Shown here piece by piece: positions 907 through 41,577 of a stretch of 64,000 bases of DNA. Source of the stretch: Acidobacteriota bacterium (GTDB lineage Bacteria > Acidobacteriota > Blastocatellia > Chloracidobacteriales > Chloracidobacteriaceae); contig JACQXX010000104.1 in NCBI GenBank assembly GCA_016208495.1, positions 1-64,000 on the forward strand, written 5' to 3'. Numbering within the stretch: the first letter of the stretch is position 1; every line of letters begins with the position of its first letter. Both the position numbers and the translations under genes were made by a program. Below the pieces are notes generated by a model. It worked only from the letters and a program-made list of their open reading frames with translations, ran no database searches and had not been told where the DNA came from.

Positions 907-1010
907 CCCGGAACCCGGAACCCGGAACCCGGAACCCGGAACCCGGAACCCGGAACCCGGAACCCGGAACCCGGAACCCGGAACCCGGAACCCGGAACCC
1001 GGAACCCGAA
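907..1010. repeat. Heptamer array (GGAACCC)n, about 15 units
   Basis: Almost perfect tandem copies of a 7-bp unit lie directly before proS. Seven is not a multiple of three, so 21 bp encode a repeating seven-residue peptide (NPEPGTR) in an open frame joined to proS. That makes the proS reading frame look about 100 codons too long. The same unit or its complement recurs at 14744, 31030, 41352 and 41482. Confidence 0.95.
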
Positions 1011-2864: not shown

Positions 2865-3240
2865 TGCGCCCAGCAGGACTCGAACCTGCGACCTACGGCT
2901 TCATACCACTATAGCTTTCGCTACCCCCGTTGGGTTTGTGGTCTGGACTGTATCTTCACCATTTCAGGTGCAACACGTGCAGTCTCTACGGAACCCCTGG
3001 AGTTTACTTTTTGAATTTCTGCAACCCCAAAAGCATTTACCCTGAGCAATTTAACCATTTTCAGGTTGAATGCCAGCCTTCAATGCTTCAAAAGAAGGTT
3101 TCCTCGGTATTACCAGCGATGAGTACTCATCGGGAAGGCTTCACCGATATAGTGCTGTGCATTGCTGCAATTTTGTTTCTTGCAGCAAGTCCAATTTTCG
3201 GTTAGAAGGCCGTTGCTCTATCCAACTGAGCTATGAGCGC
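2865..3240 (-). tRNA. tRNA-Arg(UCU), split by a group I intron
   Basis: The two exons are 3204-3240 (5', 37 nt) and 2865-2901 (3', 37 nt). Joined, they form a complete cloverleaf. Acceptor GCGCTCA pairs with TGGGCGC, the D-arm is GCTC/GAGC, the anticodon stem is ACGGC/GCCGT with loop CTTCTAA, and the T-arm is GCAGG-TTCGAGT-CCTGC. The loop gives anticodon UCU, which reads AGA/AGG arginine codons. The discriminator is A and CCA is not encoded. The 302-nt insertion lies after anticodon position 36. This tRNA is unusable without splicing unless another arginine tRNA gene covers these codons elsewhere in the genome. Confidence 0.93.
2902..3203 (-). ncRNA. Group I self-splicing intron in the tRNA-Arg anticodon loop
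   Basis: The 5' exon ends in U (the U of the anticodon) and the intron ends in G, as group I splicing requires. Near the 3' end (transcript strand) there is a P7-like pair, GACTGCA with the AAGATACAGTCC block. A small hairpin CACCTGAAATGGTG fits P8. These resemble the conserved core of bacterial tRNA introns. At 302 nt it is compact and carries no credible homing-endonuclease gene. Family knowledge: related introns occupy the anticodon loops of tRNA-Arg(CCU), tRNA-Ile(CAU) and tRNA-Leu in proteobacteria and cyanobacteria. The subgroup and full folding were not computed. Confidence 0.88.
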
Positions 3241-3334: not shown

Positions 3335-4102
3335 ATGTATCGTTATCATCATCTTACCATCGTTATTCCGATTCACAACGAAGCGGAACTCCTTCCCTCA
3401 GTGGTTGCTTCCTTCCCTGATTTTGTAGATCACGTGATTTTTGTGGATGACGCCAGCACCGATGACACCCCGGCGGTGCTCCGGCACATCGTTGATTCCC
3501 GATCAGGGCGGTTTACCGTTTTGAGACACCTGACCAACCAGGGTGTTGGCGCGGCAACCGTCACCGGCTATCGCCATGCGTTGACCAGTAAAGCTGATTT
3601 GATTGTGCTGATGGACGGGGACGGTCAGATGGATGGCCGGGACTTGCCGTTGATGCTTGATACTCTCATTGGCGGCCCATTTGATTTTGTCAAAGGGAAT
3701 CGCTTTGCGCATTCAAGCATTCAGCGCATGCCCTGGACGCGCTATGTGGGAAATTCCATCCTGAGCTGGCTTACCAGACTCGCCCTGGGCTGTAAACATC
3801 CGATTGACGCTCAATGCGGCTTTACGGTATTTCGAGCAACTGGCCTGCGGCAACTCGATCTACATCATTTATTTCCAAGATATGGGTTCCCCAACGACCT
3901 GCTGTTTGAAGTCGCTGCCAAAGGGTTGTATTTCACCAGCGTCCCGGTGCGGACCGTTTATGGCAACGAAATTTCCGGAATCAATCCATTTGTGGTGCTG
4001 CCAACCATTTTCGGGCTGATTGCCCGTGGCTACTGGCGTCGGCTGGGACGGCAAAGCAACAAACCCCGCACCCAGTGGAGTGAAACGCGAGCGAGTCAGT
4101 AG
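3335..4102 (+). CDS. Family 2 glycosyltransferase (DPM1-like)
   Basis: This is a GT-A fold glycosyltransferase of 255 residues, probably transferring a sugar from a nucleotide or to a polyprenyl-phosphate carrier at the cytoplasmic face of the membrane. Residues 8-20 read TIVIPIHNEAELL, the usual GT2 start. VDDASTDDT and the metal-binding DGDGQMD motif follow, and later NDLLFE. No long C-terminal membrane anchor is present, unlike some dolichol-phosphate-mannose synthases. The stop codon lies inside the AGTAGTC heptamer array, so the last few residues (RASQ) come from repeat sequence. The substrate cannot be told from sequence. Confidence 0.88.
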   Translation: MYRYHHLTIVIPIHNEAELLPSVVASFPDFVDHVIFVDDASTDDTPAVLRHIVDSRSGRFTVLRHLTNQGVGAATVTGYRHALTSKADLIVLMDGDGQMDGRDLPLMLDTLIGGPFDFVKGNRFAHSSIQRMPWTRYVGNSILSWLTRLALGCKHPIDAQCGFTVFRATGLRQLDLHHLFPRYGFPNDLLFEVAAKGLYFTSVPVRTVYGNEISGINPFVVLPTIFGLIARGYWRRLGRQSNKPRTQWSETRASQ

Positions 4103-4195
4103 TCAGTAGTCAGTAGTCAGTAGTCAGTAGTCAGTAGTCAGTAGTCAGTAGTCAGTAGTCAGTAGTCAGTAGTCAGTAGTCAGTAGTCAGTAGTC
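4095..4195. repeat. Heptamer array (GTCAGTA)n, about 14 units
   Basis: A near-perfect 7-bp tandem array begins inside the last codons of the preceding glycosyltransferase gene. A complementary array (GACTGAC units) lies about 105 bp downstream at 4301-4352, so the two can pair imperfectly. Confidence 0.95.
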
Positions 4196-41481: not shown

Positions 41482-41577
41482 AACCCGGAACCCGGAACCC
41501 GGAACCCGGAACCCGGAACCCGGAACCCGGAACCCGGAACCCGGAACCCGGAACCCGGAACCCGGAACCCGGAACCC
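41482..41577. repeat. Heptamer array (ACCCGGA)n, about 14 units
   Basis: It begins where tatD copy 2 loses homology to its family and is read through in that gene's frame as a repeating VPGSGFR peptide. Confidence 0.95.

Follow-up and report, generated by a model that had tools for sequence, protein, structure and literature searches.

The group I intron in the tRNA-Ile(CAU) gene of Azoarcus is a small intron of the anticodon loop with a P3-P9 core, and the introns of cyanobacterial tRNA-Leu(UAA) and tRNA-fMet genes are likewise small, reside in the anticodon loop and possess such a core. Arginine tRNAs also serve as hosts, and introns in the anticodon loop of tRNA-Arg(CCU) occur in Agrobacterium and in Bartonella, where the intron BbgpI splices in vivo as well as in vitro (PMC7717549). 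An interruption of tRNA-Arg-TCT by a putative group I intron was reported for Ca. Thiomargarita nelsonii (PMC4853749) and for Beggiatoa BOGUAY (MacGregor 2013, as cited in PMC4853749); neither structure nor subgroup of the Thiomargarita/Beggiatoa intron was given by the authors of the former study (PMC4853749). A literature search for group I introns in tRNA genes of Acidobacteria yielded none bearing on the intron described here, which is not proof of absence.

In the present study a stretch of 64,000 nucleotides from a genome of Acidobacteriota, hereafter the window, was analysed, and we conclude with high confidence that the one tRNA-Arg(UCU) gene found is interrupted by a group I intron, probably an active ribozyme, on whose splicing the decoding of AGA would depend. 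The window intron is new to the known class of tRNA group I introns, its UCU host having previously been reported as putative. Host, insertion site (36/37), guide GGA and clade are shared with the Thiomargarita/Beggiatoa introns (L124, a named T. nelsonii contig among the 36/37 introns compared, and its relatives), whose bearers are Gammaproteobacteria, unlike the window's Acidobacteriota. The view expressed in the preliminary description that UCU is not a common host can thus be kept only in a milder form, given these reports (PMC4853749) and the frequency of UCU introns in Blastocatellia. The gammaproteobacterial CCU introns examined have site 36/37 in common with the window intron, but the CCU introns differ in anticodon (CCU), guide (GGG) and clade, and the Azoarcus and cyanobacterial introns differ in hosts and sites. 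The Leu and fMet types are also present in the source genome, where tRNA-Leu(UAA) (L075, contig C70) carries a 244-nt group I intron and tRNA-fMet (L002, contig C107) one of 996 nt coding for a LAGLIDADG_2 protein.

The tRNA-Arg(UCU) gene is located on the minus strand at 3240-2865, and its anticodon loop is interrupted by 302 nt (3203-2902). ARAGORN run without introns found 0 tRNAs across the window, which means that the usual tRNA search misses this gene, and with introns allowed it reported exactly one, tRNA-Arg(tct) c[2865,3240], in which an intron of 302 nt follows nucleotide 37 and the spliced tRNA has 74 nt. This intron-aware scan, suggested beforehand, reproduced the removal of 302 nt (2902-3203) leaving a 74-nt tRNA that the preliminary description had proposed, and the host call together with the rules for terminal U and G agreed with its placement of the intron in tRNA-Arg(UCU) after position 36; the location on the minus strand was absent from it. 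With the exon junction at ^, the spliced sequence reads GCGCTCATAGCTCAGTTGGATAGAGCAACGGCCTTCT^AAGCCGTAGGTCGCAGGTTCGAGTCCTGCTGGGCGCA. The sequence by itself leaves the boundary open within two bases, as AA stands at both junctions. Under the group I rules (U at the exon end, G at the intron end) it is resolved as CUUCU^AACC...UAUG^AAGCC, where ^ marks the splice sites, and this U and G place the insertion between tRNA positions 36 and 37. The intron ends in ...GTGGTATG and hence in the terminal guanosine of group I introns. A sister genus has an uninterrupted tRNA-Arg(UCU) (L047), and the stems of the spliced tRNA depart from it at just two base pairs, both compensated, of which one belongs to the anticodon stem and the other to the T stem. 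The interrupted gene is not a chance pattern, since in another genus the same intron interrupts the same gene, which likewise adjoins proS and has identical exons, and the intron fold lies 4.1 standard deviations below shuffles (z -4.1). Just upstream of the gene, one sigma-70-like promoter match was noticed, with 0.6 expected by chance. Exons at other loci were found by a script demanding cloverleaf pairing, a U before the intron and a G at its end, because intron placement by ARAGORN was often wrong there.

All parts of the interrupted gene are given here on the minus strand. The 5' exon (3204-3240, 37 nt) ends in the anticodon UCU (positions 34-36), the intron of 302 nt occupies 2902-3203 between tRNA positions 36 and 37, and the 3' exon (2865-2901, 37 nt) does not encode CCA. 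Near the start of the intron the internal guide sequence GGA (3190-3192), recognised from sequence and from its covariation with the host anticodon, pairs with UCU to form P1 with a U36.G wobble at the 5' splice site, as is typical of group I introns. It is followed by the P2 hairpin (3162-3188; 3188-3180 with 3170-3162), seen in compensatory changes against L045. The 5' strand of P3, CAGCAC (3152-3157), pairs with GUGUUG (2976-2971; 3' strand 2971-2976), that of P4, UCGGUG (3142-3147), with UACCGA (3109-3104; 3' strand 3104-3109), and that of P6 (3101-3103) with UCC (2992-2990; 3' strand 2990-2992). P7, the guanosine-binding site, is formed by GACUG (2980-2984) and CAGUC (2950-2946; 3' strand 2946-2950) and encloses the P8 hairpin CACC UGAAAU GGUG (2957-2970). 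The P9 domain (2902-2945), delimited by fold and sequence, ends in the terminal (omega) G at 2902. The R-like segment reads GTAGAGACTGCACG and the S-like segment GAAGATACAGTCC. The L6 extension (2999-3096), about 95 nt long, is almost absent in the sister genus that has the intron (G001) and contains no ORF. L6 is the site of homing-endonuclease genes in the 34/35 relatives, and no ORF of 70 codons, as would be looked for in a mobile intron with a homing endonuclease, was found on the sense strand of the 302-nt intron; an ORF on the plus strand (2930-3205) is antisense to the intron and was taken as chance.

The 302-nt insert is, by its sequence, a group I intron with predicted splicing activity, as the preliminary description had proposed: P3-P8 and P4-P6 domains with the P7 pseudoknot are present, as are the guide GGA, P2, P3, P4, P6, R- and S-like segments, P8 and P9. 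With regard to subgroup, a small core, P2 and a P9 with side hairpins were seen, and no P7.1. In an alignment of eight homologues (A1), from which the structure model itself was partly drawn, 98.8% of cells in the P3-P8 and P7 structure are paired, and 15 of the 33 core pairs are changed on both sides. None of 500 shuffles reached the observed values, and when the structure was slid, pairing amounted to 32-44%. P7 covaries between window intron (GACUG/CAGUC) and its counterpart in relatives, and all core helices pair in the window copy; the P7/P8-like core noted earlier near the 3' splice site is consequently real by the covariation test. The comparison with Rfam that had been recommended as a check turned out otherwise, as RF00028 gave no match to the window intron at gathering, at E<=1 or even at E<=10. 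The model misses this intron subfamily, and it is for this reason, not because the core is absent, that the check fails: the 34/35 relatives remained without match as well, and related Lys, CAU and fMet introns scored 28-49 bits, below the cut-off of 50. A match to RF00028 is a detection aid and not a defining feature of group I introns, and the subfamily of the window intron escapes it. Matches to miRNA families at 2793-2863 were rejected as chance matches to a repeat hairpin, and a weak tmRNA match reflects the tRNA-like 3' end.

In the transcript the intron would fold so that P1 forms between the guide GGA and the anticodon UCU, and a guanosine held in P7 would attack after U36. The freed U36 would then attack after the terminal G at 2902, with P10, formed by A37-A38 and the UU before the guide, aligning the exons, and the joined tRNA would decode AGA and help with AGG. 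Catalysis, splicing in the cell and any need for a protein helper are what we infer from this architecture.

The link between guide and anticodon was found to hold across introns at the same site. At 36/37, all 13 distinct introns with anticodon UCU have guide GGA and all 26 with anticodon CCU have guide GGG. Introns at 34/35 of Arg(UCU), Leu(UAA) and Lys(UUU) have guide GAG and those at 35/36 of Asn(GUU) have GCA; in CAU tRNAs interrupted at 33/34 the expected triplet occurs in only half. This covariation indicates how such introns stay bound to a single anticodon.

Within the family of the source organism, another genus (G001) bears an interrupted tRNA-Arg(UCU) beside proS, with the downstream gene also shared. 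Its exons are identical to those of the window over the 73 bases compared, and its intron of 214 nt, 78% identical over 212 aligned positions, is devoid of most of the L6 extension and retains pairing in P2, P3 and P9 through paired changes. An intron equal to that of G001 was found in Blastocatellia bacterium SSF51 (L139), by which the family is placed in Blastocatellia (Acidobacteriota). An insertion processed by proteins, or an artefact of assembly, is an exceedingly improbable alternative to a ribozyme, as the insert has the core of a group I intron, including conserved R-like and S-like segments, and recurs in this independently assembled genome of another genus; no support for such an origin was found. 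A third genus of the family (g4) possesses an intact, intronless tRNA-Arg(UCU) and so displays the empty site. Among 396 Acidobacteriota genomes the 36/37 pattern was detected in two; named genome contigs contained it in 40 stretches, most of them from Gammaproteobacteria, Thiomargarita, Parabeggiatoa and Thioploca included, and its hosts, where resolvable, are all Arg(UCU) or Arg(CCU). Of 162 genomes belonging to the class, 61 were matched by a search with the core model; the hosts that could be resolved were Arg(UCU) and Leu(UAA), both at 34/35, Lys(CUU) at 35/36 and CAU tRNAs at 33/34. The Arg(UCU) introns at the second site, frequent in Blastocatellia (L046-L102), have tRNA and clade in common with the window intron, but are inserted two bases earlier and have guide GAG, and in several of them L6 harbours an endonuclease gene of the PDDEXK_5 or LAGLIDADG type; a PDB sequence search with the endonuclease of L054 gave no match.

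The source genome is a draft of 8.4 Mb in 177 contigs, 99.16% complete, in which 45 tRNAs were found. Arginine anticodons other than UCU are ACG, CCG, TCG and CCT. A search of the genome with the spliced 74-mer recovered only the two halves of the interrupted gene and weaker paralogues, and no second tRNA-Arg(UCU). Since this gene is the only tRNA-Arg(UCU) found in 8.4 Mb, AGA decoding, as had been predicted beforehand, very probably depends on splicing of the intron, and the only AGA-reading tRNA found in the organism apparently must be made by RNA splicing; 45 AGA codons occur in the 38 window ORFs of at least 200 codons. As the genome is a draft, a second copy might lie hidden in an assembly gap. 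On this rests the alternative that the intron is a degenerate relic which does not splice, AGA being read by such an undetected tRNA, and the 95 additional nucleotides in L6, which could weaken folding, as well as the missing RF00028 match would suit it. We regard it as very unlikely, for the exons are 100% identical between genera while the introns differ by 22% with pairs kept, every core helix pairs in the window copy, and no other copy was found in the sister genome G001 either. Many tandem arrays of 7-base units, resembling the short tandem repeats of cyanobacteria, are dispersed across the window (907-1008, 2792-2822, 4094-4195, 41482-41577 and others); one extends into the listed proS ORF at its start, and immediately downstream of the tRNA-Arg(UCU) gene another (2792-2859) makes up an inverted repeat.

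In a tree of 61 introns the bacterial UCU introns of both sites, 36/37 and 34/35, fall on one side of a branch with support 100/100, and the CCU, Lys, Leu and CAU introns on the other. With phage introns added, the branch is retained at 98/99 and includes a tRNA-Lys(UUU) intron of a huge phage on a long branch. The window intron belongs, with good support, to a separate clade, in which it is joined by UCU introns at 36/37 from Gammaproteobacteria of the Beggiatoa/Thiomargarita type and by those at 34/35 from other Blastocatellia; this clade is a little-described lineage of introns in arginine tRNAs with relatives in sulphur bacteria. The preliminary description had envisaged a lateral move from tRNA-Arg(CCU), for which the shared site speaks, as does the small change required, namely anticodon position 34 and one guide base. 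We consider this origin very improbable, because the UCU clade is separate from all CCU introns in both trees and the genome's own tRNA-Arg(CCU) is intact; the window intron, with its UCU anticodon, shares neither anticodon nor descent with the CCU family. AU tests did not discriminate between arrangements within the UCU clade, with p 0.37 for all 36/37 UCU introns as one clade and p 0.22 for a grouping of the source-family pair with the 34/35 type. For the source family, a gain followed by vertical inheritance and an ancient presence with loss in g4 both fit. The UCU lineage probably spread horizontally between phyla, and its inheritance in the source family now appears vertical, the intron there having no homing endonuclease gene. 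As the lineage occurs in two phyla and occupies, in one tRNA, two sites that differ by two bases, its routes of spread are testable.

One such route, possible yet doubtful in our view, is that phage-borne tRNA genes serve as reservoir and vehicle of anticodon-loop group I introns and carried the UCU lineage between Acidobacteriota and Gammaproteobacteria. It is suggested by the tRNA-Lys(UUU) gene of a 484-kb uncultured phage (L274, LR756508.1), whose 193-nt intron resembles the window intron in its core and joins its clade, though on a long branch. A review of 2014 stated that phage introns were present only in protein-coding genes (PMC3984707). In the viral contigs surveyed here (L153-L232), anticodon-loop group I introns were frequent in tRNA genes, and 66 of 80 loci could be resolved: Leu(UAA) 45, Arg(UCU) 8, Asn(GUU) 4, Lys(UUU) 3, CAU 3, Arg(CCU) 2 and Ser(UGA) 1. 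A 139-kb phage contig with a terminase match (IMGVR_UViG_3300025087_000037, L148 5640-5990) bears a tRNA-Arg(UCU) gene whose group I intron, 220 nt long and inserted at 36/37, falls outside the bacterial UCU clade and nearer to CCU and other phage introns. In a Microcoleus phage (OR578706.1, L273 2843-3128) an annotated tRNA-Arg of 286 nt contains a 213-nt group I intron, and its host reads as Arg(CCU) with site 36/37.
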